From Actinomadura sp. KC345 (lineage in GTDB: Bacteria; Actinomycetota; Actinomycetes; Streptosporangiales; Streptosporangiaceae), in assembly GCF_004348515.1 (NCBI RefSeq), contig NZ_SMKH01000006.1:1-64000 (forward strand): a stretch of 64,000 nt of DNA. Direction: 5' to 3'. The stretch's first letter is position 1. Every line of letters begins with the position of its first letter. The notes below the pieces were generated by a model. That model saw nothing but the letters and a program-made list of their open reading frames with translations. It did no database searches and was not told the origin of the DNA. This document shows positions 32,480-45,329 of this stretch, piece after piece. Position numbers and translations under genes: made by a program.

Positions 32480-33305
32480 TGCCGTGGTCGCGGAGGATGT
32501 CGTTCAGGGACGCCTTGTCGTGCCGCCGGCCCTCTTCGAGGCGCTTCAGGATGAGCACCGCCGGGAGCCCGAACGTCCCGCCCTTGAACTCCTTGTAGCG
32601 GGTGCCGCCGACGGCGACGCACCAGTCCGGGATGCGGCCGCGGCTGATCTCCTCGCCCGTCTCCACGTCGATGACCGGCATGGACGCCGACAGGTTCGTC
32701 CCGGACCCGACGACCGCGCCCCTGCCGACCCGCGCCCCCTCGACGATCATCGAGCGGCTGCCGATCATCGCCTCGTCCTCGATGACCACCGGCTTGGCGT
32801 TCGGCGGCTCCAGGACGCCGCCGATGCCGACGCCGCCGGACAGGTGGACGTTCTTGCCGACCTGGGCGCACGAGCCCACGGTCGCCCACGTGTCGACCAT
32901 CGTGCCGGAGTCGACGTAGGCGCCGATGTTGGTGAACGACGGCATCAGCACCACGCCGGGCGCCAGGTAGGAGCCCCAGCGGGCGATCGCGCCCGGGACG
33001 ACGCGAACGCCGTCCAGGCGGCTCTTCAGCGGGATGCGGTCGTGGTACCGGAAGTCGCCGACCTGGGAGCGCACCATGCCGAGGACCTTGAAGCTCAGCA
33101 GGATCGCCCGCTTGGCCCGCTCGTCGACGACCACCTCGCCGGACGCGGGGTCGATGCGGGCGACGCGGGCCTCGCCGGCGTCGATCTGGTCGACGGCGGC
33201 CACGATGGCGGCCTTCGCGTCGGCGTCGTCCGGGCCGAGGTCGGCGCGCCGCTCCCACAACTCGTCGATGCCGCTGGTGATCGGGCTGGTGAACGTTTCG
33301 GTCAT
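32469..33305 (-). CDS. dapD: Tetrahydrodipicolinate N-succinyltransferase
   Basis: A 278-residue acyltransferase. The N-terminal helical domain is followed by DYHDRIPLKS-like FRYHDRIPLKSRLDGVRVVP and a left-handed beta-helix (GAYVDSGTMVDTWATVGSCA, then QVGKNVHLSGGVGIGGVLEP and GSRSMIVEGARVGRGAVVGS). The C-terminus carries KEFKGGTFGLPAVLILKR. It performs the succinylation step upstream of DapE. The start ATG 33305 is divergent from the 33350 gene. Confidence 0.93.
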   Translation of the reverse strand: MTETFTSPITSGIDELWERRADLGPDDADAKAAIVAAVDQIDAGEARVARIDPASGEVVVDERAKRAILLSFKVLGMVRSQVGDFRYHDRIPLKSRLDGVRVVPGAIARWGSYLAPGVVLMPSFTNIGAYVDSGTMVDTWATVGSCAQVGKNVHLSGGVGIGGVLEPPNAKPVVIEDEAMIGSRSMIVEGARVGRGAVVGSGTNLSASMPVIDVETGEEISRGRIPDWCVAVGGTRYKEFKGGTFGLPAVLILKRLEEGRRHDKASLNDILRDHGINT

Positions 33306-33349
33306 GCCTCCTGAGCTTACTGGTGGCCATCTCCCGGTACCTTCTTCGC

Positions 33350-34276
33350 GTGGCAGTTTGGGCGAAGAAGGCGCGCTCCGAGAAGGAGCCCGAGGACGGC
33401 GGCGGTGGGCGCCGCCGTCGCGGCGGCCTGGGCTGGGCAGCGGGCCTGTCGGTCATCATCGTGCTGCTGGCCGTCGGCGGGTACGCGCTGTTCCAGGGGG
33501 CCCGCCCCTACCTGCACGGTTCCGGATGCGAGGTGACGGCGAGCGCGGGCAAGATGCCGCTCGACCTGGAGCAGGCCGCCAACGCGGCCACGATCGCCGC
33601 CGTCGCGTTCCGCAAGCGGCTGCCCGAGCGCGCCGTGGTGATCGCCTACGCGACCGCCATCCAGGAGTCGCACATCCGCAACCTGGAGGGCGGCGACCGC
33701 GACTCGGTCGGCATGTTCCAGCAGCGCCCGTCCCAGGGATGGGGCACCCCGGACAAGCTCCGCGACCCGGTCATCTCCACCAGCAAGTTCTTCGACGCGC
33801 TCGTCCAGGTGCAGGGTTACGTCGACCACGACCTGCACATCGCGGCGCAGGAGGTGCAGAAGAGCGCCGACGGCGAGGCCTACGCCCAGCACGAGGACGA
33901 GGGCACGCTGCTCGCGGCGGCGTTCACCGGCCGCGAGCCCGGCACGGCGCGCTGCTGGTACCCGCCCGACGAGCAGACCGGCTCGCGCCGCCCGGAGGCG
34001 CTCCGGGAGATGCGCCGCGCGTTCGGCAGCAGGCTCCAGGTGGGCGGCCCCGGCCCCCTCACGGCCGGTGCCCCGTCCCGCCCGGACTCCTGGAACTCGG
34101 TGAAGGCGGCCAGCACCCGCGAAGGCTGGGCCGTCGCCGCCTGGGCGATGGCGCACGCCCAGGTCTACGGCCTCACCGAGGTCCGCTACGCCGGCAAGCA
34201 CTGGCAGTCCGAAGCCGGCCACGACGGCTGGACCACCGACCCCGACGCCCCCAAGGACACCGTCATCATCAAGTGA
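33350..34276 (+). CDS. Membrane-anchored protein with lysozyme-like pattern
   Basis: A protein of about 308 residues. A Lys/Glu/Gly/Arg-rich cytoplasmic start is followed by one span (about 28-50, LGWAAGLSVIIVLLAVGGYA). The extracytoplasmic domain has IAYATAIQESHIRNLEGGDR and DSVGMFQQRPSQGWGTPDKL. The Glu in QESHIRNL and the GMFQQRPSQGWG stretch resemble transglycosylase-like proteins often misnamed heavy-metal transporters in actinobacteria. Peptidoglycan action is an inference. GTG 33350 is preferred; the frame also opens at GTG 33323. Confidence 0.7.
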   Translation: MAVWAKKARSEKEPEDGGGGRRRRGGLGWAAGLSVIIVLLAVGGYALFQGARPYLHGSGCEVTASAGKMPLDLEQAANAATIAAVAFRKRLPERAVVIAYATAIQESHIRNLEGGDRDSVGMFQQRPSQGWGTPDKLRDPVISTSKFFDALVQVQGYVDHDLHIAAQEVQKSADGEAYAQHEDEGTLLAAAFTGREPGTARCWYPPDEQTGSRRPEALREMRRAFGSRLQVGGPGPLTAGAPSRPDSWNSVKAASTREGWAVAAWAMAHAQVYGLTEVRYAGKHWQSEAGHDGWTTDPDAPKDTVIIK

Positions 34277-34296
34277 CCGCCACCGCCCGGCGGGAT

Positions 34297-34431
34297 TCAG
34301 ACGGGCAGGACGCCCTTGAAATGCCAGGGCGTCACGTCGGGATGGGTGGTGGCCAACCAGCCGTCCGTGACGCCGTCCGCGGCGACTTCTCCCAGGTGGC
34401 GAAAGAACGGCGGCCGGACTCGGCCCCATGA
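34297..34431 (-). pseudogene. Possible truncated gene tail at the left edge of the defence island
   Basis: The minus strand reads FFRHLGEVAADGVTDGWLAT and THPDVTPWHFKGVLPV then stop at 34297. Upstream it runs without a start into hsdR. The composition looks coding and the segment ends cleanly, so it may be the stump of a chromosomal gene cut by island insertion. I cannot name the family. Confidence 0.3.
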
Positions 34432-34452
34432 GAGGGTGCGAGTGCCCGGTTC

Positions 34453-36924
34453 GTGTCGGAGGCGTCGAGTAGAAATAAGGACGTGACGTCCAGATTCCAG
34501 GACCCCCTTGAGGACGAGACCTGCCGCCGCTTCGTCCTTCCCGCCCTGGAGGGTGCCGGTTGGCGGGAAGACCAGATCCGTGCCCAGTACCCGATCAACC
34601 TCGGCCGCATCCGCGCGACCGCCCGCCGCCATCTGCAGGAAAGGCCGCTGAAGGCCGACTATGTGCTGTCGTACTCCGACGGGTTGCCCATCGCCGTCAT
34701 CGAGGCCAAGCGCACCCGCCGAGACCCGGAGGACGGTTACGAGCAGGTCAAGCGGTACGCCCGCCTGCTGGACGTTCCCTTCGCCTACACGACGAACGGG
34801 CACCGCATCCTGGAATACGACGCCCGGACCGGCCGCCTGGCGGAGATTCAGGAGTTCCCCTCCCCCCAGGAGCTGTGGTCCCGGTTCCGGCGGGAACGAG
34901 AACTCACCGACGACCATCAGGCAGGGCTGGCCTCGGCGCCGCTCAATTCGACGCTCCGCAACTGGGACGGCACACCGAAGGAACCGCGGTACTACCAGCG
35001 CATAGCGATCAATCGGACGGTCCAGGCCATCGCTTCCGGCAGGTCGCGGATGCTGCTCGTCCTGGCCACCGGCACGGGAAAGACTCTCGTCGCCTCACAG
35101 ATCGTCGCCAAGTTGTGGAACGCGAATTGGCCGGGCGGCCGCAGGCCCCGCGTCCTCTACCTGGCCGACCGCAGCATCCTGATCGACCAGCCCAAGGACG
35201 ACTACTTCGTGCCGATGTTCGGCGAAGCGGTGCACAAACTCGGCGGCGGTGACGCCAAGACGGGCAGGAACATCTATCTGGCGCTCTACCAGTCACTGGA
35301 CAGCAGCGGCGATGAGGAGAGTCTGTACAAGCAGTTCCCCGCGGACCACTTCGATCTCATCATCGTCGACGAATGCCACCGGGGCAGCGCGGCTGAGAAC
35401 TCGAGATGGCGGGCGATCCTGGAGTACTACTCTCCCGCCGTGCAGATCGGCCTGACCGCGACCCCGGTCCTCGGGAAGGACACCGACACCTACGGCTACT
35501 TCGGGGAGCCGCTGTACGAGTACACGCTCGCGCAGGGCATCGAGGACGGGTTTCTGGCCCCCTACCGGGTCCGGAAGGTGCGGCTGAACGTCGACATGAC
35601 GGGCTGGCGTCCCGATCCCGGGCAGAAGGACCTTCTCGGCCGGGAGATTCCGGACAAACTCTACGGTCCGAGAGAGTACGAGCGTGTTCTCGCCATCATC
35701 GAGCGGACCGAGGAGGCCGCCCGCTATCTGACCGACTTCCTGCACCGCACCGACCGGATGGGGAAGACGATCGTGTTCTGCGCCAGCACCGAGCACGCCT
35801 TCCGGATGATGAAAGCCCTGAACAACGCCAACGCCGACCTGGCGCGCCGGTACGACGGCAAGTACGCGTGCCGTATCACCGCGGCGGACGGCGATCCCGG
35901 CCGGGAATTGCTGGACGAGTTCCGCGAGGAGGCCACCGACGTCCCGGTGATCGCGGTCACGTCCCGGCTGCTGTCGACCGGCGTGGACATCCCGACGCTG
36001 CGCAACATCGTGCTCTTCCGCGTGATCAGGTCGATGCCGGAGTTCAAGCAGATCATCGGGCGCGGCACCCGCTTGTTCCCGGAGGCCGGCAAGTTCTCCT
36101 TCGACATCATCGATTTCGTCGACGCGACACGCCTGTTCAACGACCCCGACTTCGACGGCCCGCCGATGCGCGTGGTGCGGGACGAGACCGACGCCGACGG
36201 CAACATCACCGACTCCGTCAACGAGGACGTCCCCGGCGATGAGGAGATGGTCGCAGAGCCCGGAGCCGAGTACGAGGAGCAGGACGGCGGCACCCTGCCC
36301 CCGTTCGTCACCGACCCGGACGAGGTGGAGGAGATCCTCGCCAGCCCGAACAGGTTCTACGTCGACGGCGTCCAGGTAACGCAATGGGGCAGCGCGTTCT
36401 ACGTGTCGGACACCGATGCCGCGGGAGGGCTGCGGCTGATCGAGTACGAGCAGTTCGTCCGGGGACAGGTCATCAGGCTCAACCTGGAACCGCACCAACT
36501 CCTTGGGCAGTGGGCGCATGCGAAGAGCAGGCAGGAACTGCGCAAGCTGCTGGACGAGAGCCATATCGTCCCGGAGGATCTCGCCGAATGGGCGGGACGC
36601 CCGGACGCGGACACGATCGACCTGTTGCTCTACCTGGCGTGGGAGATTCCGCTCCTGTCCCGGTCGGAGCGGGCGCGCCGGGTGGCTGTCCGGCACCGGG
36701 AGTTCCTCGACTCGTTCGCTCCCCAGGCCCGCGAGGTGCTCGATAGGGTTCTGGACCAGTACGCCGCACGGGGGTCCGAGGAGTTGGAGATCCGGGCGCT
36801 GCGTTCGGACGCCTACAGCTCGGACTTCGGCAACGTCCTGGAGATCGGTGAACGCTTCGGCGGCGGCGACCGGTTGCGCGAGGCGCTCGACGAGTTGAAC
36901 AGCCTGGTCTACACCGCATCCTGA
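34453..36924 (+). CDS. hsdR: Type I restriction enzyme R subunit
   Basis: An 823-residue motor-nuclease. The N-terminal PD-(D/E)xK nuclease has Asp in KADYVLSY and IAVIEAKRTRRD (about residues 72-95). The SF2 translocase has LVLATGTGKTLVASQI (Walker A, about 198), IIVDECHRGSA (DECH, about 305), GLTATPVLG, and helicase C motifs TIVFCASTEHAFRM and QIIGRGTRLFPEAGKFSFDI. A C-terminal domain of about 200 residues contacts the methylase core. GTG 34453 has no clear ribosome-binding site; GTG 34483 (MTSRFQDP) is an alternative. Its partners HsdM/HsdS are separated from it by the AbiE genes. Confidence 0.92.
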   Translation: MSEASSRNKDVTSRFQDPLEDETCRRFVLPALEGAGWREDQIRAQYPINLGRIRATARRHLQERPLKADYVLSYSDGLPIAVIEAKRTRRDPEDGYEQVKRYARLLDVPFAYTTNGHRILEYDARTGRLAEIQEFPSPQELWSRFRRERELTDDHQAGLASAPLNSTLRNWDGTPKEPRYYQRIAINRTVQAIASGRSRMLLVLATGTGKTLVASQIVAKLWNANWPGGRRPRVLYLADRSILIDQPKDDYFVPMFGEAVHKLGGGDAKTGRNIYLALYQSLDSSGDEESLYKQFPADHFDLIIVDECHRGSAAENSRWRAILEYYSPAVQIGLTATPVLGKDTDTYGYFGEPLYEYTLAQGIEDGFLAPYRVRKVRLNVDMTGWRPDPGQKDLLGREIPDKLYGPREYERVLAIIERTEEAARYLTDFLHRTDRMGKTIVFCASTEHAFRMMKALNNANADLARRYDGKYACRITAADGDPGRELLDEFREEATDVPVIAVTSRLLSTGVDIPTLRNIVLFRVIRSMPEFKQIIGRGTRLFPEAGKFSFDIIDFVDATRLFNDPDFDGPPMRVVRDETDADGNITDSVNEDVPGDEEMVAEPGAEYEEQDGGTLPPFVTDPDEVEEILASPNRFYVDGVQVTQWGSAFYVSDTDAAGGLRLIEYEQFVRGQVIRLNLEPHQLLGQWAHAKSRQELRKLLDESHIVPEDLAEWAGRPDADTIDLLLYLAWEIPLLSRSERARRVAVRHREFLDSFAPQAREVLDRVLDQYAARGSEELEIRALRSDAYSSDFGNVLEIGERFGGGDRLREALDELNSLVYTAS

Positions 36925-36986
36925 CCTTCAAGTCTCTTTTAGTTGCAAGTGGACATCCTGCACCAAACTAAAAGTGACTTGAAGGT
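36924..36986. promoter_or_regulatory. Inverted-repeat operator before abiEi
   Basis: Arms of 21 bases at 36924-36944 and 36966-36986, beginning ACCTTCAAGTC and ending GACTTGAAGGT, match at all but one position around a 21-base spacer. The first base of the left arm is the last base of the hsdR stop, and the right arm ends 22 bases before abiEi. AbiEi antitoxins repress their own promoters through inverted repeats, so this is the expected site. The spacer and arms are much more AT-rich than the surroundings. Confidence 0.75.
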
Positions 36987-37008
36987 GTATTCGCGATAGA
37001 GTCGCCGG

Positions 37009-37611
37009 ATGCGGCAGCGAGACGACGAGCCTCGCGCCCGGCTGTGGCGCCGGGCGGCACGTCAGCGCGGCTACTTCACCGCAGCCCAGGCCCTTGAGGA
37101 CGGCTACTCCTACCAGTCGCAGTACTTCCATGCGCAGCGCGGCAACTGGACGCGCGTCGATCGCGGGGTCTACCGCTTCCGCGAGTTCGCCGACCTGCCG
37201 ACCGGCGAGAACGATCATCTCGTCCGCTGGACGCTCTGGAGCCGGGACCTGGCGGTGGTGTCGCACAGCACCGCTCTCGGCGTTCACGACCTGGGCATCG
37301 CGAACCCCGCCGAGATCCACCTGACGGTCCCCCCGGGTTTCCGGCAGCGGGACGCGGCGGTCGTCGTCCACCGCGCCGAATTGTCCCCGGAGGAGATCGA
37401 AGAGCATGAAGGGTTCCGGGTGACCACACCCGTACGCGCCATCGCAGAGTCAGCCGCCGACCGGCTCGACCAGGACGCGATCGACTCCGCCGTTGCCGAG
37501 CTGCTCGCCCGCGGAGCCGCCACCAAGGGGCAGATCCTCCGGGCCGCGCAGCACCTGGGCGCACGCGCGGAACTCGCCGTCGAGCGGGCCTTCGGAGCGG
37601 AACGCGCATGA
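37009..37611 (+). CDS. abiEi: AbiEi antitoxin, type IV toxin-antitoxin
   Basis: A 200-residue protein with the AbiEi layout. The N-terminal winged helix is RGYFTAAQALEDGYSYQSQY with WTRVDRGVYRFREF (about 20-60). The following domain contains VVSHSTALGVHDLG and IHLTVPPGF, as in AbiEi_4-type antitoxins, and a helical C-terminus. It should repress the operon and counter AbiEii without direct protein inhibition. The ATG at 37009 starts the co-directional set abiEi-abiEii-hsdM-hsdS, with GTGA/ATGA overlaps or 6-base spacing throughout. Confidence 0.88.
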   Translation: MRQRDDEPRARLWRRAARQRGYFTAAQALEDGYSYQSQYFHAQRGNWTRVDRGVYRFREFADLPTGENDHLVRWTLWSRDLAVVSHSTALGVHDLGIANPAEIHLTVPPGFRQRDAAVVVHRAELSPEEIEEHEGFRVTTPVRAIAESAADRLDQDAIDSAVAELLARGAATKGQILRAAQHLGARAELAVERAFGAERA

Positions 37612-38474
37612 GCCGCTACGCGAACGCGGTCGATCTTCGACGCGCGCTTGAGGCCCGGCTCAAGCAGCGTGCGGACGAGACCGGCACGGACCTCAGCCGC
37701 CTGCGCCGCGTCGCGGTGTTCGACCGGATCGGCGCCCGGCTGTCCGCCGCCGAACGGGGATGGGTGCTCAAGGGAGGCGCGTCCCTTGAGTTCCGCCTGG
37801 GTGTCCGCGCCCGCGCGACGAAGGACATCGACCTGGCGCTGCCGGACGGGCCGTGCGATGGCGAGTCTCTACGCGAGGAACTCATCGAAGCACTTTCGGT
37901 GGACGTCGACGGCGACCGCTTCGTGTTCACCGTCAAGCCTCCCGTGGGACTGGAACCCGATGCGGCGGGACGCCCCGGCTGGCGCTTCTCCATTGACGCC
38001 ATGCTCGCAGGAAAGTCGTTCGCCTCCATCAGGTTGGACGTCGTCCTGCGCGGCGAGGAACTCGCGGCGACGGAACGTATCGCTCTGCCGGGCGTCCTGG
38101 CCTTCGCGGACGTGCCACCGCGCACGATCGAGTCGGTGGACCGCCGCCAGCACTTCGCGGAGAAGCTCCACGCCTTCACACGTGACTACGGCACCCGCCC
38201 GAACACGCGGGTGAAGGACCTCGTGGACATGGTCCTGCTCATCGAGGACGGTCTCCCCTCGGAGAGGTCTCTGCTGGACGTGGTGAGCCACGTGTTCGCC
38301 GCCCGCGAGGCCCAGCCGGTTCCGCAGGCCCTTCCCGACCCGCCGCCCGTCTGGGCGAAGGAGTATCCGAAGCTCGCCGAGGACCGGACGCTCACTGAGC
38401 CGGACCTCGCCGTAGCGCTCGATCTGGTCCGCAAGTTCTGGGCGCAAGCCCTCACCACGGAAACGGAAGTCTGA
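37608..38474 (+). CDS. abiEii: AbiEii nucleotidyltransferase toxin
   Basis: A 288-residue DUF1814-family nucleotidyltransferase. The GS-x-DxD core is WVLKGGASLEFRLGVRARAT followed by KDIDLAL (about 45-72, metal-binding Asp pair). RLDVVLRGEE gives the third acidic position. The Lys-containing motif is RRQHFAEKLHAFTRD, and VKDLVDMVLLIEDG completes the family signature. The catalytic residues are intact. It overlaps abiEi by 4 bases (ATGA) and ends 6 bases before hsdM. Confidence 0.92.
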   Translation: MSRYANAVDLRRALEARLKQRADETGTDLSRLRRVAVFDRIGARLSAAERGWVLKGGASLEFRLGVRARATKDIDLALPDGPCDGESLREELIEALSVDVDGDRFVFTVKPPVGLEPDAAGRPGWRFSIDAMLAGKSFASIRLDVVLRGEELAATERIALPGVLAFADVPPRTIESVDRRQHFAEKLHAFTRDYGTRPNTRVKDLVDMVLLIEDGLPSERSLLDVVSHVFAAREAQPVPQALPDPPPVWAKEYPKLAEDRTLTEPDLAVALDLVRKFWAQALTTETEV

Positions 38475-38480
38475 CCCGTC

Positions 38481-39971
38481 ATGGCTCCAGCCAAGAAGAA
38501 GACCGAGGACACCAGTTCCCGCGCAAGGCTCGGTTCAGTGATCAAGTCGGCCCGCGACATCATGCGCAAGGACGCCGGCCTGAACGGCGACCTAGATCGG
38601 CTCCCCCTGCTGTCCTGGCTGTTGTTCCTCCGCGCCTTCGACGCTTTGGAGAAGCAACGCGAGGCATATGAGGACGATTTCCGGCCTGCCATTGACCCCG
38701 AGTTTCAGTGGAGCACCTGGGCCAATGACGAGAACATCACCGGAGATGAACTACTCGAGTTCGTCAATGGCGAGTTGCTCCCTTACCTGAGCGACCTCAA
38801 GAGTAGCGACCCGGGCGACCCGCGCAACGTCCTCGGCCAGGTATTCCAGGGTGTCCAGAATCGTATCGCCTCCGGCTACCTGCTCCGCGACCTCCTCAAC
38901 CAGATCAAGAAGATCGACTTCACGTCCAGCGACGACATTCATACAATGGCGTACCTGTACGAGTCGCTGCTGAAAGAGGTCCGGGACGCAGCCGGCGACT
39001 CCGGCGAATTCTACACCCCGCGCGCCGTCATCCGCTTCATGGTCGAGCAGACGTTCCTGGAACTCGACGAAAAGATTCTCGACCCTGCCTGCGGGACCGG
39101 AGGCTTCCTGGTTGAGGCATACACGGAGCTGACCAACGGCCGGAAACTTGGAATTCTCCAGCAGGAGAAGCTTTGGCGCGATCTGCGCGGCATCGAAAAG
39201 AAGCCGCTCCCGTACCTGCTATGCATGATGAACCTGATCCTGCATGGCATCACCGAACCCAAGATCCTGCACACCAACGCGCTGAGGCACATGCTGAACG
39301 AGTCCGGGCCGAGTGACCGCGTGGACGTGATCCTCACCAACCCGCCCTTCGGCGGGGAAGAAGAGGACTCGATCGCCAAGGCTTTCCCGAAGGGCTACCA
39401 GACCCGTGAGACAGCCTGGCTGTTCCTTCACGAGGTCATCAAGAAACTCAAGCCGGACGGCCGATGCGCGATCGTCCTCCCGAATGGGGCACTCTTCGGC
39501 GAGGGCATCGGCGCAAAGATCAAGAAGAAGCTGATGGACGAGTGCAACCTGCACACCATCGTCCGACTCCCCCAAGGCGTCTTCGCGCCCTACACCCAGA
39601 TCCCCGCGAACCTGCTCTTCTTCGACAAGACCGGAACCACGAAGGAGACCTGGTTCTACCAGATCGACCCACCCGAAGGCCGCAAGGGCTACGCCAAAAC
39701 CAGGCCCATGCGCTACGAGGAATTCGCCGAATGTGCCGAATGGTGGGGCGGCAAGGAGCGAGCGAACCGCGAGAAGACCCAGCGCGCCTGGTGCGTCCCC
39801 ATCGCAGACATCATCGCCAACGACTACAACCTCAACCTCACCAACCCTGCCGACGAGGACGACCTAGCCCACCACCCGCCTGCCGAATTGCTAGCAGACC
39901 TCATCGCAACCGAGAACGAGATCCTCTCTATCCTCAGGGAGCTTAAAGATGACCTGGAGGCCCACGGATGA
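38481..39971 (+). CDS. hsdM: Type I restriction-modification N6-adenine methylase subunit
   Basis: A 496-residue methylase. The N-terminal helical HsdM_N domain (about 15-135) has LSWLLFLRAFDALE. The catalytic domain has GEFYTPRAVIRFMVEQTF, SAM motif I LDPACGTGGFLVEAY (about 200) and motif IV VDVILTNPPFGGEEED (NPPF, about 285). ATG 38481 follows abiEii closely. The stop overlaps the hsdS start (ATGA). It should methylate adenines in both half-sites with HsdS. Confidence 0.95.
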   Translation: MAPAKKKTEDTSSRARLGSVIKSARDIMRKDAGLNGDLDRLPLLSWLLFLRAFDALEKQREAYEDDFRPAIDPEFQWSTWANDENITGDELLEFVNGELLPYLSDLKSSDPGDPRNVLGQVFQGVQNRIASGYLLRDLLNQIKKIDFTSSDDIHTMAYLYESLLKEVRDAAGDSGEFYTPRAVIRFMVEQTFLELDEKILDPACGTGGFLVEAYTELTNGRKLGILQQEKLWRDLRGIEKKPLPYLLCMMNLILHGITEPKILHTNALRHMLNESGPSDRVDVILTNPPFGGEEEDSIAKAFPKGYQTRETAWLFLHEVIKKLKPDGRCAIVLPNGALFGEGIGAKIKKKLMDECNLHTIVRLPQGVFAPYTQIPANLLFFDKTGTTKETWFYQIDPPEGRKGYAKTRPMRYEEFAECAEWWGGKERANREKTQRAWCVPIADIIANDYNLNLTNPADEDDLAHHPPAELLADLIATENEILSILRELKDDLEAHG

Positions 39972-41113
39972 CGGCTCAGCCCGTTCGCCTTGGCGACGAA
40001 CTACAGCTTGAGCGATTCCCTGTCGCGGTTTCAACTGACACCGAGTACACCCAGATCGGCATCCGCTCGTTCGGTAGAGGGATATTTCACCGCGACAAGA
40101 TGCCCGGCAACGAACTAAGCAAACTGCGCTACTTCGAAGTCACTCCTGAGCGCCTGATCGTGAGCAACATCATGGCCTGGGAGGGCGCAATTGCTGTGTC
40201 AACTGATCGGGATCGTGACTGCATCGCATCAAATCGATTCCTCAGCTACGCGCCGTCAACCAACGTAGACGTACGATACCTAAACTACTACTTCCAGAGC
40301 GCCCCTGGCATGAGGGCAATTCGAGGCACATCCACTGGGACGGTTCTTCGGAACCAGACACTGTCCATCAAGGACTTTGAGAATCTAGTAGTACCGCTGC
40401 CAGACGTGAAGGAGCAGCGCCGCATCGCCGCCCGTCTGGACGCCGCGCTAGCGAAACTCGCGCACGTGAAAGGGCTTAGAGAACATCGCGCCCGACTGTG
40501 CGCTGCTCTAGCCGAGTCCATGATAGGCAGCGCCATCGAGTCACCGCAATCCGTCGGGCTGATCGGCGATATCATGACCCTCACCCGGCGTCCTGTCGCA
40601 CCGGAGCCCGGCAAGACTTACCGGGAAATTGGCATACGCTCCTTCGGCAGAGGCGTCTTCCATAAAGAGCCCGTCACAAGCGAAGATCTTGGAAACAAGA
40701 GAGTATTCGCCATCAGGCCGGGCGACCTGCTCTTCAGCAACGTCTTCGCATGGGAGGGAGCGGTTGCCTTGGCCAGCGAGACCGAAGCCGGTTTTATCGG
40801 TAGCCACCGGTTCATGACCTATCAGGTCAACGAGAACCGCGCGGACTCTTCTTATCTGCGCCATTATTTTACCTGCAAACCCGGGCTTGAAACCATCCGC
40901 CGCACTTCCCCTGGGTCCGCCGGACGTAACAAAACACTCGGCATCAAGAACTTCGAGGCGCAACCCATCCCACTGCCATCACTGAGCGAGCAGCACAAAG
41001 TCGGCCGCATTCTCGACGCAATCTCAAAGGGCATCAGCGCTAACGACAGTGCTGAAATAGTTGCCGCTTTCAAGCCGTCATTGCTAAACAAGGCGTTCAG
41101 TGGCCAACTTTAA
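39968..41113 (+). CDS. hsdS: Type I restriction specificity subunit with two similar target-recognition domains
   Basis: A 381-residue protein with two target-recognition domains, each followed by a helical spacer (VPLPDVKEQRRIAARLDAAL and IPLPSLSEQHKVGRILDAIS). The domains are clearly related to each other: IGIRSFGRGIFHRDKM (about 29) and IGIRSFGRGVFHKEPV (about 220), then SNIMAWEGAIAVS and SNVFAWEGAVALA. That predicts similar half-sites on both sides of the target. The gene is visibly more AT-rich than its surroundings, as is common for hsdS exchanged by transfer. Confidence 0.93.
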   Translation: MTAQPVRLGDELQLERFPVAVSTDTEYTQIGIRSFGRGIFHRDKMPGNELSKLRYFEVTPERLIVSNIMAWEGAIAVSTDRDRDCIASNRFLSYAPSTNVDVRYLNYYFQSAPGMRAIRGTSTGTVLRNQTLSIKDFENLVVPLPDVKEQRRIAARLDAALAKLAHVKGLREHRARLCAALAESMIGSAIESPQSVGLIGDIMTLTRRPVAPEPGKTYREIGIRSFGRGVFHKEPVTSEDLGNKRVFAIRPGDLLFSNVFAWEGAVALASETEAGFIGSHRFMTYQVNENRADSSYLRHYFTCKPGLETIRRTSPGSAGRNKTLGIKNFEAQPIPLPSLSEQHKVGRILDAISKGISANDSAEIVAAFKPSLLNKAFSGQL

Positions 41114-41162
41114 GGCCGGAGTGGCAGCCCAGGCCAGGCCAAGGCTGCCACTGTCGACCGCT

Positions 41163-41366
41163 TTACTGCGGTGCGGCAGCTTGTAGGTGGTCAAGCAGGT
41201 GGTGTGCCGCCACAGAAGGTAGCTCGAGAGTTGGGCCGTCTGGGTCTTTGGAGTCCCGGATCAGGAGCCCCTCTGGGACGGCCGCAATCTCTACGCACTC
41301 GCCGCCCGTACCGCCACTGTAGCTGCTCTTATGCCACAGCCGCGTTGTCTTCCCGGGTTGCTTCAT
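41163..41366 (-). CDS. DUF397 domain protein, second of a pair
   Basis: A 67-residue protein with WHKSSYSGGTGGECVEIAAV and LLIRDSKDPDGPTLELPS, the full DUF397 pattern. Its ATG overlaps the end of the upstream DUF397 gene by 38 bases in another frame. In actinobacteria DUF397 proteins are partners of HTH/DUF5753 regulators, where they behave like antitoxin-type or developmental switches. Confidence 0.88.
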   Translation of the reverse strand: MKQPGKTTRLWHKSSYSGGTGGECVEIAAVPEGLLIRDSKDPDGPTLELPSVAAHHLLDHLQAAAPQ

Positions 41367-41553
41367 CTAATGCTCGGCTGATCAGAGCACGGGCCGCCGC
41401 CGGGGTCAGGCCAATGGTAGGGCCATTCGGGTCCTTCGAGTCGCGAACAAGTACGCAACCGGGAATGACCGCGACCTCAACGCACTCACCACCCAAGCCG
41501 TTGCTGTAGCTACTCTTGCGCCACCGGGTAACCGCTGTGATCGGAGGGGTCAT
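41329..41553 (-). CDS. DUF397 domain protein, first of a pair
   Basis: A 74-residue protein with WRKSSYSNGLGGECVEVAVI, VLVRDSKDPNGPT and a helical end. ATG 41553 follows AGGAGACGTATC, a good ribosome-binding site, and lies 44 bases inside the 3' end of the HTH/DUF5753 gene. A recent tandem duplication with the next gene is likely, as both share CVE(I/V)A and DSKDP(D/N)GPT. Confidence 0.88.
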   Translation of the reverse strand: MTPPITAVTRWRKSSYSNGLGGECVEVAVIPGCVLVRDSKDPNGPTIGLTPAAARALISRALDEATREDNAAVA

Positions 41554-42409
41554 GATACGTCTCCTGGATTCGGCGCATAAACTCGTTCGATTCGGTCTGA
41601 CTCAGGACCTCGCCCATCGTCCTGTTGAAATATACCTCTGTCATGAACACATCGTCCCTTGTCATGAACACATCGTCCCTGTTGTCGATCACATAGCCGA
41701 TGTTCCCTGACTCGATGTACACAAGGTCTGGCTCCTTCTCGAAGCTGAGCAGGATCATGTCCCCAGCCAGCGCTTCTGTGGTGATCCGCTCGAACGGCAT
41801 GATCAAGACTTGAACGAAGGGCGACCTCGCCGCATTGATGAGGTGATCGATCTGCCTCGCCATGGTCTGAGGGCCCCCAACCGGCCGCCGGAGCGTGGAC
41901 TCGTCCAAGACGCACGTCATCATGACGGGCTTGTCACGGGAGAAGATCGCTTGTCGTTCCATACGGCTGGCAACTCGCGCGTCCAGGGTCTCCTCAGGTT
42001 CGCTGCGGTCCATGATGCCCCGCGCGTAGTCCTCGATCTGAAGCAGGCCCGGCACGATCTGGGCAGCGAAGCAGCGAACGCCTATGGCTCTGGTTTCTTG
42101 CTCCAGATAGGTCTTGAAGCCCGGCCGCAGGACGCGGCTGCGGCCGGCGCGGCGGATGGCCTGGTGGATGCGGTGGAAGTGGCCGTCGTCCTGGTCCCAG
42201 CCCTCCGTCTTGAAGTAGGTGTCCAGGTCGAGGGCCGTCTGCTCGGAGACCGTCTTGTCGGCCTTCTCGAGCTGGCATATCCACTGAGGGGTGCAGCCGA
42301 GCGCCTTGGCCAGTTCGTTCTGAGACAGCTTCGCGCGTGCGCGCGTGCGGCGTAGTTCCAGGCCGAAGTGGACGCGCAGGGCGTCAGGGTCTTGCTGATC
42401 GCTGGCCCT
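41510..42409 (-). CDS. HTH (XRE-like) regulator with DUF5753 domain; start codon apparently lost
   Basis: The frame is open from 42463 to the stop at 41510. The N-terminal helix-turn-helix is KLSQNELAKALGCTPQWICQ. A linker and DUF5753 (FAAQIVPGLLQIEDYARGIM to the end) follow. These proteins regulate with DUF397 partners, two of which follow. No ATG, GTG or TTG exists in frame before the HTH. An AGGAGG at 42424-42419 sits 9 bases before an AGG codon (42409) where ATG is expected, so the start looks mutated. A 21-base tandem duplication encodes RDDVFMT twice near the C-terminus (41641-41682). The gene may be inactive or may start at CTG. Confidence 0.75.
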   Translation of the reverse strand, partial: RASDQQDPDALRVHFGLELRRTRARAKLSQNELAKALGCTPQWICQLEKADKTVSEQTALDLDTYFKTEGWDQDDGHFHRIHQAIRRAGRSRVLRPGFKTYLEQETRAIGVRCFAAQIVPGLLQIEDYARGIMDRSEPEETLDARVASRMERQAIFSRDKPVMMTCVLDESTLRRPVGGPQTMARQIDHLINAARSPFVQVLIMPFERITTEALAGDMILLSFEKEPDLVYIESGNIGYVIDNRDDVFMTRDDVFMTEVYFNRTMGEVLSQTESNEFMRRIQETYHDPSDHSGYPVAQE

Positions 42410-42562
42410 GTCGGGGGGCCTCCTGCACTCGGTGAACCGGGGGTGGCGACGGTGGACGTGCAGTTAATCCAGATTCGTAGCCGAGAGTAATCGAGAGAAA
42501 GCAGTCTGTCCCGCGAATCGAAGAGGGCCGATCAGATCGGCCACGGCAGGGACAGGAAGCCG

Positions 42563-42759: not shown

Positions 42760-42921
42760 ATCCCACCGCGGGGCTGAGGTGCTGGATTCCCGGCCTACAG
42801 GTCTGGTACGGGATCTACACGAAGTCATAGTGGGCGTTCGTGCCGGGCCGCCCTGACCTTCTGTTCGAGGCGCCGTCTCCCGAGGTGCTCGTGCGGAAGC
42901 TCACCCCGTATGCCGGCCGGG

Positions 42922-43574
42922 TCACGGCACGCGGGCCCAGGCGGTTTCGGTGACGATGACGTGATCGAGGAAGCGCAGGCCGACCGTCTCGGCGGCATCG
43001 CGCAGAGTCTCCGTCGCCGGACGTCGGGGGTGCTCGGCTCCAGGCATCCGCTGGGGTGGTTGTGCGCGACACCGAACGCGGTGCCGCCGGCAGCGAGCAC
43101 AGCGCTCAGCACGTCCCTTACCGGGATCAGGCTGCGGTCGGCGGCACCCTCCGTCAACGGGACGACGCGGATCACGCCTCTGTTGCCCCCGCATACGACC
43201 ACGACGACGCGTTCGAACCGCAGTCCGCGTAGGAACGGCGCCGCCACGGCGGCCAGGTCAGCGGAACCACGGATTCTGCGCGGGTCCGGTGCCCCGGTCG
43301 CGCGGCGCGCCAACTCGAACGCCGCCGCGATCCTCGCCGCCCTGGCCGGGCCGACACCGGGCAACCGCTTCAGCGCGTGCGAGTCGGCCAGGGCCAGGGC
43401 GGCCAGTCCACCTCGTTCATCGATCAGGCGGGCCGCGAGTTCGATCGCGTCGCATCCTGGCAGTCCCGCGCCCAGGACGAGCGCGAGCAGTTCACGGTCG
43501 GACAGCGCCCGCGGCCCCTGCCTCAGCAGCCGCTCGCGGGGTCTGTCCGACTCGGGCAAGTCCGTGACCCGCAT
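42922..43574 (-). pseudogene. radC: RadC family protein (JAB/MPN domain), frameshifted
   Basis: The N-terminus MRVTDLPESDRPRERLLRQG, the helix-hairpin-helix HALKRLPGVGPARAARIAAA and the metal motif VAHNHPSGCLEPSTPDVR are read in one frame. The rest, TETLRDAAETVGLRFLDHVI and VTETAWARVP, is in another. One base near 43018 appears to be missing; restoring it gives 217 residues, the normal RadC length. The HxHx(n)D metal site spans the break. RadC-type proteins are common in mobile islands; their function is unsettled. The start is ATG 43574. Confidence 0.75.
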
Positions 43575-43628
43575 CCCCGATACCTCCGCGCCCAGGAGAG
43601 CAGGCGGCACCGACAGAACGCAGCGGTC

Positions 43629-45329
43629 TCAGTCGTCGGTATCGGTGTCCAGGACCTCGACCTTCTCCGCGTGCCTGACCACCTCGGGATCGGACTCCCT
43701 GGCGCGCGAGTTGACGACCGGGGCGCCGCTCACGAGTTCAAGGCCCCAGCCGAGGAGCGTTTCCCCGCGAGCCGCCAAAAAGCTTCGGTAGTCGCCGTTC
43801 ATCGCGGCCTCGAAGGCTCGGGGCGAGACGAGAAGGCTGTCGAGCCTGTCACGTATCTCGTTATCGCCGCTGAAGTCGATCTCGGCCTGGAGGTAGGCGG
43901 CGGGCGCCTGGTCGGCCACGAACTGGTTGCTGATCGCCGTCAGCATGACGATGTTGACCAGCGTGTTGGCCTCCTCGTAGGAGAGCCCCTCACGCATGAG
44001 CCACGCCTTGGGGAAAAAGTGGTGGTACTGCATCTCGTTGGACATGGCGAGCGCACGCCCGACGTCGATGCGCTGTCCCGTGCGCAGGTCTCGCGGATCG
44101 GCCGCGGCCAGCATCAATGCGTACGCCTTCGTCCTGCCGCTATCGCGCCGGTACTGGTGTCCCCACCATCGTTTGACGCCCAGCGGCGCGGTCTCGACAT
44201 CGATGACCCTGGTCTCGCGCTGGGCGAAACGGGTGACGGCGGCGAGGTCGTCCGCCATCTTCCGGGCGTTCCAGCCTTCGTAGTACCCGCTGAGCGCGGT
44301 TTTCCAGAACCAGCCGCGGATCGCGGCGAACTGGTGCGCGTCCGGCTTCGGAAGCCGCCGGAAGATCTCGATCACCACCGCGAGCTGGTTCGGGTAGGGC
44401 AGTGCCTCGGCGGTGGGGGTCCCGATCTCCGTCGTCAGGAAGTCGACGGCCCGCCGGGCGGCCTCCTCGGTCTCGGAGATGGCCGTGGGCAGGGAAGCCG
44501 GCGGGATGGTGGGGAGTCGTTCGATGTCCTTGGTGGCGAAGCCGAGACCGGCGGCCGCGGCGATGGACCGGAGCAGCAGCCTCCGGTCGATCTGGCCGTA
44601 GTGCTTGTCCGCGAGGACCTCGCGAACCCGATCGATCGCGTCCAGCAGGTCGAAGTCGCTCGTCCAGGTGGCCGCCCGGACGAACTCCACGGTGGTGAGC
44701 GGAGTGGCCCGCGTGTTCACCCGCTCGAAGATGCGGCCCACCTCGGTGAATTCGGTCGCTTCGAGGGTCACCACCGCGACCTCGTACTTGGTGAACCGGG
44801 TGAACAGGACCTTCGCTCGCTCTCGTTGTTCCATGGGCAGGTCCATGACCCGCGGGAAGAAGTCCGAAGGCTCGCTCAGAAAGCGCAGAGGCACCTGGTG
44901 GGCCGGTGGGTCATCGAGATCCTCACGGTGCAGGAACCGCTCGTCCCGCAGATCGTAGACGAGGTTCCAGAAGCTGCGAGGGTCACCGTCCGGTTCCGGT
45001 TCCCAGTGCAGCGCGCCGCAGATCGTCGACAGCCGTTGACAACCGTCGAGGAGATAGGTCCTGCCATCGCTCGGCTCGGTTGCGCTGATCTCGAGATCGG
45101 CGATGCTGCGCTCGCTGGCTAGGTCGAGCCGGCTTCGCCACAGCAGGAGGCTTCCGATCGGGTAGTTCCGCGCTATCGAGTCCAGCAGGTCAAGGACCTG
45201 CGTCCGCGACCAGACGAACTCACGCTGGAACTTGGGCAGCAGTATCCGCCCCTCGAGGACGCGCGTCGCCAGTCCAGTGATCTGCTCCGGCAGCGGCCTG
45301 TGCTCTCGTTCCTGGGAGTTCTTCGGCAC
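43629..45329 (-). CDS. DUF262 / GmrSD-like protein with C-terminal HNH-type motif
   Basis: A 566-residue protein. The N-terminal DUF262 (ParB/Srx-like fold) has ILLPKFQREFVWSRTQVLDL, NYPIGSLLLWR and YLLDGCQRLSTICGAL. The usual motif is DGQQR, so one Gln is Cys here. The C-terminal part has MQYHHFFPKAWLMREGLSYE and a following Asn-rich segment (NTLVNIVMLTAISNQFVADQ), like the His/Asn nuclease motif of DUF1524/HNH. This is the layout of GmrSD-type modification-dependent restriction or related phage-defence proteins. Its position beside a type I system fits defence. Confidence 0.8.
   Translation of the reverse strand: MPKNSQEREHRPLPEQITGLATRVLEGRILLPKFQREFVWSRTQVLDLLDSIARNYPIGSLLLWRSRLDLASERSIADLEISATEPSDGRTYLLDGCQRLSTICGALHWEPEPDGDPRSFWNLVYDLRDERFLHREDLDDPPAHQVPLRFLSEPSDFFPRVMDLPMEQRERAKVLFTRFTKYEVAVVTLEATEFTEVGRIFERVNTRATPLTTVEFVRAATWTSDFDLLDAIDRVREVLADKHYGQIDRRLLLRSIAAAAGLGFATKDIERLPTIPPASLPTAISETEEAARRAVDFLTTEIGTPTAEALPYPNQLAVVIEIFRRLPKPDAHQFAAIRGWFWKTALSGYYEGWNARKMADDLAAVTRFAQRETRVIDVETAPLGVKRWWGHQYRRDSGRTKAYALMLAAADPRDLRTGQRIDVGRALAMSNEMQYHHFFPKAWLMREGLSYEEANTLVNIVMLTAISNQFVADQAPAAYLQAEIDFSGDNEIRDRLDSLLVSPRAFEAAMNGDYRSFLAARGETLLGWGLELVSGAPVVNSRARESDPEVVRHAEKVEVLDTDTDD

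Follow-up and report, generated by a model that had tools for sequence, protein, structure and literature searches.

In a 64,000-nucleotide stretch of the Actinomadura sp. KC345 genome (contig NZ_SMKH01000006.1, positions 1 to 64,000; hereafter the window), an AbiE toxin-antitoxin pair lies inside a type I restriction-modification (RM) locus, in the order hsdR, abiEi, abiEii, hsdM and hsdS. Judged from its sequence, this is rather probably a composite defence locus of two transcription units, in which the antitoxin AbiEi represses a shared promoter, setting the levels of toxin and methylase together. The geometry of operator and promoter, the order and spacing of the genes, their conservation across phyla, their co-divergence, and purifying selection on AbiEi after loss of the toxin are read directly from the sequences, from which we infer that AbiEi binds and acts as a repressor, that one transcript covers the four genes, and what the locus does for the cell. 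The features that carry this reading are as follows.

34453-34475, forward strand: hsdR promoter-like element GTGTCGGAG-N8-TAGAAA (PafBC-type likeness, fixed position in relatives)
34483-36924, forward strand: hsdR, type I restriction subunit of the EcoAI/FtnUII family, probable leaderless GTG start (family profiles)
36924-36944, forward strand: left arm of the predicted operator, overlapping the hsdR stop (inverted repeat search)
36966-36986, forward strand: right arm of the predicted operator, including the -35-like GTGACT at 36974-36979 (inverted repeat search; -35 picked by eye)
36997-37002, forward strand: -10-like TAGAGT, 6 nt 5′ of the abiEi start (position-conserved TANNNT in relatives)
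37009-37611, forward strand: abiEi, antitoxin and putative operon repressor, 200 aa (PADLOC E 1.6e-63; AlphaFold model)
37608-38474, forward strand: abiEii, nucleotidyltransferase toxin, 288 aa (Pfam AbiEii, fold model, conserved motif residues)
38481-39971, forward strand: hsdM, type I DNA adenine methylase (N6_Mtase 228 bits, HsdM_N)
39968-41113, forward strand: hsdS, specificity subunit (Methylase_S 56 bits, two Methylase_S stretches)

Candidate AbiEi operator

The arms of the inverted repeat upstream of abiEi are 95% complementary and lie 21 nt apart, and its core reads CTTTTA-N27-TAAAAG. The AbiEi operator of Streptococcus agalactiae, proven by gel shift, is likewise CTTTTA-N27-TAAAAG, with one repeat holding the -35 box (PMC3985639). 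Since half-site and spacing equal those of the proven operator, comparison supports the repeat as a predicted AbiEi-type operator overlapping the abiEi promoter, and an inverted-repeat operator within the abiE promoter is what type IV AbiE systems have. At up to 3 mismatches the core occurs once in the window, versus 0 occurrences in 100 shuffles, and at a single place in the genome (8.27 Mb, 600 contigs, 97% complete), with no second AbiEi operator elsewhere at this threshold. A stricter pattern, TTTAGTTT..AAACTAAA, failed to match even the window's own site.

The 110 nt 5′ of abiEi were surveyed in 47 loci, 35 with abiEi embedded between hsdR and hsdM and 12 others (five of them without a recognised abiEii), and the spacing between half-sites was left free. 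The best half-site pair was 26-28 nt apart in 36 of 47 loci (25/35 embedded, 11/12 other), compared with 118 of 1880 shuffles, and exactly 27 nt apart in 23. A palindrome upstream of abiEi outscored all 30 shuffles in 18/35 embedded loci and in each of the 12 others. Some script-called starts were wrong (e.g. L043 and L078), lowering these match counts. As a separate observation, the Nitrospirota loci L107, L108 and L122 carry a different repeat, TTACATTAAATGTAA, at the operator position upstream of abiEi, and a similar repeat is found in the hsdR-hsdM gap of a Nitrospinota locus without abiE (L110).

Transcription of abiEi, abiEii, hsdM and hsdS

The best -35 candidate, GTGACT, chosen by eye, lies inside the right operator arm and ends 17 nt ahead of TAGAGT. 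A TANNNT box stands 6 or 7 nt 5′ of the abiEi start in 37 of the 47 abiEi loci; among 28 full loci it stands exactly 6 nt upstream in 19, versus a mean of 0.67 per position. Shine-Dalgarno-like sequences precede abiEi in 2/28 loci, abiEii in 24/28 and hsdM in 18/28. The abiEi mRNA is probably leaderless, because the -10 box is so close to the start codon and a Shine-Dalgarno sequence so seldom precedes it.

A separate promoter for hsdM was rejected: no -10-like position recurred in the 150 nt 5′ of hsdM (9 hits over 150 positions in 28 loci), and a palindrome in the 110 nt 5′ of hsdM outscored its own 30 shuffles in none of 35 loci. A sigma-70 scan of 34000-41600 gave one promoter-like site, within hsdM, which equals the shuffle mean of 1.0, and no Rfam family reached its gathering score in 33000-42500. 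Comparison supports the earlier proposal that abiEi, abiEii, hsdM and hsdS form one unit, which is conserved across phyla.

Genes of the locus

Coordinates read off the window bear out the five genes, their order and their common forward strand, as a preliminary description of this DNA had them, together with overlaps of exactly 4 bases at abiEi/abiEii and hsdM/hsdS, a gap of exactly 6 bases between abiEii and hsdM, and a 21-bp inverted repeat (20 of 21 positions paired) at the hsdR stop, ahead of abiEi. The start of hsdR, which had been placed at 34453, is probably 34483, because of the promoter-like element at 34453-34475 and the spacing of its -10-like box; the intervening 30 bases are promoter-like, and the alignments of several homologues begin no earlier than codon 11 or 20.

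HsdR matched the EcoAI/FtnUII equivalog of NCBIfam with 848 bits (cut-off 550), and HsdR, HsdM and HsdS are co-encoded with the motor, methylase and target-recognition domains of a type I RM system. AbiEi scored 21.2 bits against Pfam AbiEi_4, under the 25-bit cut-off, and a sequence-profile search of the PDB gave no match at E≤0.01. Its AlphaFold model (mean predicted local distance difference test score, pLDDT, 91.7) found S. agalactiae AbiEi as the top PDB match (6y8q, E 1.1e-7, template-modelling (TM) score 0.63), and PADLOC and the model match point to an N-terminal winged helix and a C-terminal antitoxin domain, as in type IV AbiE antitoxins. AbiEii was recognised by Pfam (100.9 bits, cut-off 22.5, E 1.4e-28), and its model (pLDDT 91.9) was closest in the PDB to MenT3/TglT Rv1045 (7c46, 6j7r, 6y5u; TM 0.78-0.81, 22-24% identity). 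It is a DUF1814 nucleotidyltransferase with conserved motif residues, again as in type IV AbiE: K55, G56, R63, T71, D73, D75, R197 and D204 were kept in 28/28 loci and K186 in 27/28, with K55, G56, T71, D73, D75, K186 and D204 assigned to the nucleotidyltransferase-type motif. NCBIfam gave no name to either AbiE protein.

Occurrence and evolutionary history of the arrangement

The preliminary description had called for a search for this gene order in other genomes, and the arrangement was found to recur across three phyla. Of 345 genomes of the host's order, 15 had a close HsdM; six of these carried abiEi and abiEii between hsdR and hsdM, five had abiEi or a remnant without the toxin, and four had neither. 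Across 84,980 species genomes, 274 HsdM loci were confirmed; the analysis used the best 80, so that the frequencies are not population estimates. Among the resulting 85 HsdM loci (the best 80, the window and four more), 33 carried both AbiE genes, 6 had just abiEi or a remnant, and 46 had neither gene. Of the 33, hsdR was present upstream in 30, the others (L088, L102 and L111) having no hsdR on the available contig piece.

The order abiEi-abiEii-hsdM-hsdS spans Actinomycetota, Nitrospirota and Planctomycetota, with carriers in Streptomyces, Amycolatopsis, Salinispora, Micromonospora, Parafrankia, Sphaerisporangium, Microbispora and uncultured actinobacteria, and with five Nitrospirota and two Planctomycetota outside Actinomycetota. 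Even draws from class and phylum added 17 loci, three of which (L148, L152 and L158) appear to repeat L099, L127 and L103, and 7 of the 17 had both AbiE genes. The abiEi/abiEii overlap is usually 4 bases, otherwise 1 or 11; abiEii and hsdM are spaced by -16 to +49 bases with some stop/start overlaps, apart from a few outliers that arise from start calls or frameshifts; and the hsdM-hsdS spacing is most often -4. Because the same arrangement occurs in distantly related bacteria, it appears to be a genuine composite defence system and not a set of chance neighbours. AbiEi relatives on plasmids came to 21 records, every one below 60% identity. In Planomonospora (L067/L077), hsdM and a half-length hsdS are fused in a single open frame of 696 aa.

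Pairwise distance correlations (Mantel) in 28 loci, uncorrected for host phylogeny, were 0.95 between HsdR and HsdM, 0.91-0.95 between AbiEi and AbiEii, and 0.77-0.87 between HsdR or HsdM and either AbiE protein, whereas HsdS was weakly tied to each other gene (0.28-0.53). By these correlations R, M, AbiEi and AbiEii move as a set, whereas the specificity subunit is swapped.

In an HsdM tree of 83 rows, made by a quick method and from which the L094 and L119 rows dropped out, AbiE presence required 7 changes and the abiEi-only state 3. The main actinobacterial clade (n=38) comprised 26 carriers of both genes, and nested among these carriers were 6 loci that had abiEi alone and 6 that were free of abiE. 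Tree changes alone do not distinguish gain from loss; we read those in the main actinobacterial clade as losses. Scars were seen by eye: an operator without abiE in L066 and L094, the Nitrospira-like repeat without abiE in L110, and in L087 a fragment similar to the end of abiEi. The L094 locus is decaying, because its hsdM lacks the beginning. The L066 genome has no close AbiEi, its best match (30%, E 3.9e-7) being on the same contig as the operator, and no AbiEii was found at E≤0.01. AbiE modules also leave RM loci, since free-standing loci are interspersed among embedded ones in the AbiEi tree, likewise made by a quick method, and the abiE genes of L033 and L041 adjoin a decayed hsdR.

AbiEi without its toxin

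Three loci, L046 (Nonomuraea jabiensis), L047 and L049 (Herbidospora yilanensis), have lost the toxin and roughly the last quarter of AbiEi. The truncated protein has 157 residues, its gene ends 5 bases 5′ of hsdM, and it is under strong purifying selection (ratio of nonsynonymous to synonymous substitution rates, dN/dS, 0.065-0.107; Fisher 7e-9 to 7e-14). The block of the right half-site is 29/30 identical across these loci, versus 35/61 for the rest of the gap (Fisher 6e-5). No AbiEii was found at E≤0.01 in the genomes of L046 and L047; the genomes giving this result include G159, G173, G280 and G247. Because truncated AbiEi is conserved, an operator half is kept and two of the three genomes have no detectable AbiEii, these loci suggest that AbiEi has a function for the methylase operon too. 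Replacing one of the two repeats did not abolish repression of the S. agalactiae promoter (PMC3985639), and by analogy truncated AbiEi is a plausible one-site repressor. Elsewhere, AbiEi of L050 is cut near residue 113 with the half-site still recognisable, and in L058 AbiEi is down to a remnant and the half-site has drifted too. Such natural toxin-less variants separate the regulatory role of the antitoxin from its antitoxic one.

Probable promoter of hsdR

That hsdR is expressed from elsewhere than the shared operator, as had been proposed, is supported by comparison, which points to a probable promoter of its own. A LexA-independent DNA-damage promoter linked to PafBC reads tTGTCRgtg-8nt-TannnT (PMC5656591). 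In 16 of 75 hsdR loci (the near copies L086, L090, L091 and L096 counted among them) TGTCRG stands at a fixed place upstream of hsdR, against 0-2 per 10-base bin elsewhere, and in most of these it is followed by 8 nt and a TA box. The match in the window is weak, scoring 9/12 with 3% of its shuffles equal to it and A, not T, as the sixth base of the box; at least 25% of the shuffles reach as high a score in L068, L070, L047, L071 and L093. Many other hsdR loci gave no PafBC-type element at the corresponding place, and the exact consensus occurs at 2 places in the genome, neither at hsdR. We put the chance that hsdR has its own promoter of the PafBC DNA-damage type at about even; R and M may then answer to different signals.

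Proposed mechanism and points against it

In the proposed mechanism, hsdR would be transcribed from its PafBC-like promoter as one unit, and abiEi-abiEii-hsdM-hsdS from one leaderless promoter as the other. This second promoter would occupy the place of the second promoter of EcoKI, between hsdR and hsdMS. AbiEi would bind CTTTTA-N27-TAAAAG and repress it, and through negative feedback would set toxin and DNA methylase levels jointly. In a new host without AbiEi, a burst of methylase would precede closure of the promoter, with steady methylase later; a drop in AbiEi, for example on phage host shut-off, would raise toxin and methylase, and the released AbiEii, a MenT3-like nucleotidyltransferase presumably acting on tRNA, would arrest the cell.

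With repression by AbiEi, a single feedback loop would govern both methylase and toxin, and hsdR would follow another signal. The locus would be a specific, conserved and testable circuit in which the antitoxin sets methylase dosage and restriction answers to a different signal, and such a circuit suggests why a toxin-antitoxin pair persists within an RM locus across phyla. More tentatively, and with doubt prevailing, AbiEi may be a dedicated methylase governor that outlives the toxin: a damage promoter would drive hsdR, an AbiEi-closed promoter would drive hsdMS, and methylase would come first in a naive cell. DNA damage would then shift the restriction-to-methylation ratio, and the toxin-less Nonomuraea/Herbidospora AbiEi with its single half-site would be a pure RM regulator.

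Several results weigh against repression of a shared promoter by AbiEi. A half-site pair at 26-28 nt is missing in 11 of 47 loci, namely four Nitrospirota, one Planctomycetota, and deep or toxin-less actinobacterial loci (L100 and L048; L046, L047, L049 and L058 of the toxin-less group), and in 17/35 embedded loci the palindrome fails to outscore all 30 shuffles. The -10 comparison upstream of hsdM is weakened, since that region is GC-rich coding DNA. Read-through from hsdR into abiEi is possible, because a pattern scan found no forward-strand terminator-like site in 34000-41600. No abiE is adjacent in 46 of the 85 HsdM loci. One of the three genomes of the truncated-AbiEi clade, that of L049 (G044), encodes a remote relative of AbiEii (28%) outside the locus. 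This clade has also lost the left operator half, and repression in S. agalactiae required full-length AbiEi (PMC3985639), so that truncated AbiEi might be incapable of it. Finally, hsdM is intact in loci where AbiEi is decayed (L050 and L058/L072) or missing altogether; therefore hsdMS does not need AbiEi.

Alternative explanations

AbiEii might be a back-up released when a phage blocks restriction, as PrrC is, the shared operon co-producing guard and guarded. This explanation, compatible with joint repression by AbiEi, is somewhat unlikely. It draws on an abiEii gene with a MenT3-like fold inside a type I locus, in parallel to PrrC, and on purifying selection on the toxin (dN/dS 0.06-0.25); however, some three losses of the toxin have left the RM locus in place, and conservation of AbiEi without the toxin needs a second role for AbiEi.

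It is unlikely that abiE is a mere passenger, one cargo among others at an insertion hotspot between hsdR and hsdM, with hsdMS transcribed by read-through or from a weak internal promoter and the operator irrelevant to methylation. In abiE-free relatives the junction does hold other genes, encoding a ThsB-like TIR protein (L145), Fic (L146), an AAA ATPase (L104), HNH (L103, below cut-off), PLD (L132) and 23S_rRNA_IVP (L119); hsdR and hsdM are only -10 to +28 bases apart in 19/46 abiE-free loci; and the tree suggests repeated loss of abiE. Against this stand the same order and near-identical spacing in three phyla, the closer co-divergence of AbiE with R and M than with S, the conservation of AbiEi following toxin loss, and the lack of a promoter signal ahead of hsdM. 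The junction of these six loci is in itself a hotspot of embedded genes and a possible source of new defence genes.

Stabilisation of the RM locus against loss by an addictive toxin-antitoxin pair is distinctly unlikely. The pair does sit mid-locus, and AbiE contributes to the stability of an integrative element of Streptococcus suis (PMC11062541), but the toxin is gone with R, M and S kept in L046/L070, L047, L049/L071, L050, L058/L072 and L093, and abiE persists next to decayed hsdR in L033 and L041. That the inverted repeat, which begins at the hsdR stop codon, is merely an hsdR transcription terminator is hardly credible and was rejected: a similar repeat precedes abiEi where no hsdR was found (L034, L036-L039 and L042), it lacks a following T run and is absent from the hits of the terminator scan, and it shares half-site and spacing with the proven operator.

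Neighbouring features

Directly 3′ of hsdS lies a further repeat, which may mark where the operon ends and was not picked up in the terminator scan.

41120-41152, forward strand: hairpin-forming inverted repeat (16-nt arms, 88% complementary, 1-nt loop)

Near the RM locus are a GmrSD_N protein gene at 43629-45329 on the reverse strand (PADLOC PDC-M55C, E 1.7e-80) and a RadC-like gene at 42825-43610, which possibly belong to a wider defence island. A DUF5753 protein encoded at 41510-42055 on the reverse strand aligns to a Sco1979-family regulator only from model position 116 onwards, below cut-off, and may be a truncated regulator.

Comparison with known systems

The closest parallel is RptR, described in 2025, which represses a promoter that serves both a type I RM locus of enteropathogenic E. 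coli and the DarTG2 pair embedded in it (PMC12255303). Both loci embed a toxin-antitoxin pair in a type I RM locus and have, at the head of a unit with hsdM, a small gene for a repressor of one promoter for hsdM and the pair, a putative repressor in the window. RptR is a separate 9-kDa repressor acting at three direct repeats, whereas in the window that part would fall to the antitoxin itself. The DarTG2 genes are placed between hsdS and hsdR, with hsdR in the same island; in the window, by contrast, hsdR is probably transcribed from a promoter of its own. The unit in the window opens with a gene for an AbiEi fold and its repeat is CTTTTA-N27-TAAAAG, not of the TAGCTA type, so that the locus does not resemble an RptR island, no search aimed at RptR homologues having been made. 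Nor is AbiEi a C protein, which is a small lambda-repressor-like helix-turn-helix protein (PMC12255303); it has the AbiEi fold instead.

The AbiE genes resemble those of S. agalactiae in AbiEi fold, AbiEii nucleotidyltransferase family and an operator with the -35 in one repeat, but the S. agalactiae operon is bicistronic (PMC3985639), whereas the unit in the window continues into hsdM and hsdS and its promoter appears to be leaderless. The AbiEii model shares the fold of MenT3/TglT (Rv1045) at a TM of about 0.8, and differs from it in sequence (22-24% identity). PrrC of EcoprrI is an anticodon nuclease within a type I RM locus that is activated upon inhibition of the RM enzyme (PMC12707154). 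It is likewise a tRNA-targeting toxin gene inside such a locus, the target of AbiEii being presumed; AbiE differs in being a toxin-antitoxin pair that carries a putative repressor of its own. EcoKI has one promoter ahead of hsdR and another between hsdR and hsdMS (PMC12707154); this two-promoter plan is shared, and the available part of the EcoKI account mentions neither embedded genes nor a repressor of the hsdMS promoter.

We found no description of hsdR-abiEi-abiEii-hsdM-hsdS in a literature search that left subscription journals and preprints mostly uncovered, and Payne et al. 2024, on embedded defences, may mention it. The preliminary description had regarded coupling by a shared operator as new. 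This does not hold for a repressor shared by an RM system and an embedded pair, given RptR/DarTG2 (PMC12255303), and it may hold for the antitoxin itself as the putative repressor. Embedding of genes in type I loci (PrrC) and a shared repressor of RM and toxin-antitoxin genes (RptR/DarTG2) are already known; new, as far as the literature search shows, are an antitoxin as the likely repressor of hsdMS, a cassette found across phyla, and its toxin-less derivatives.

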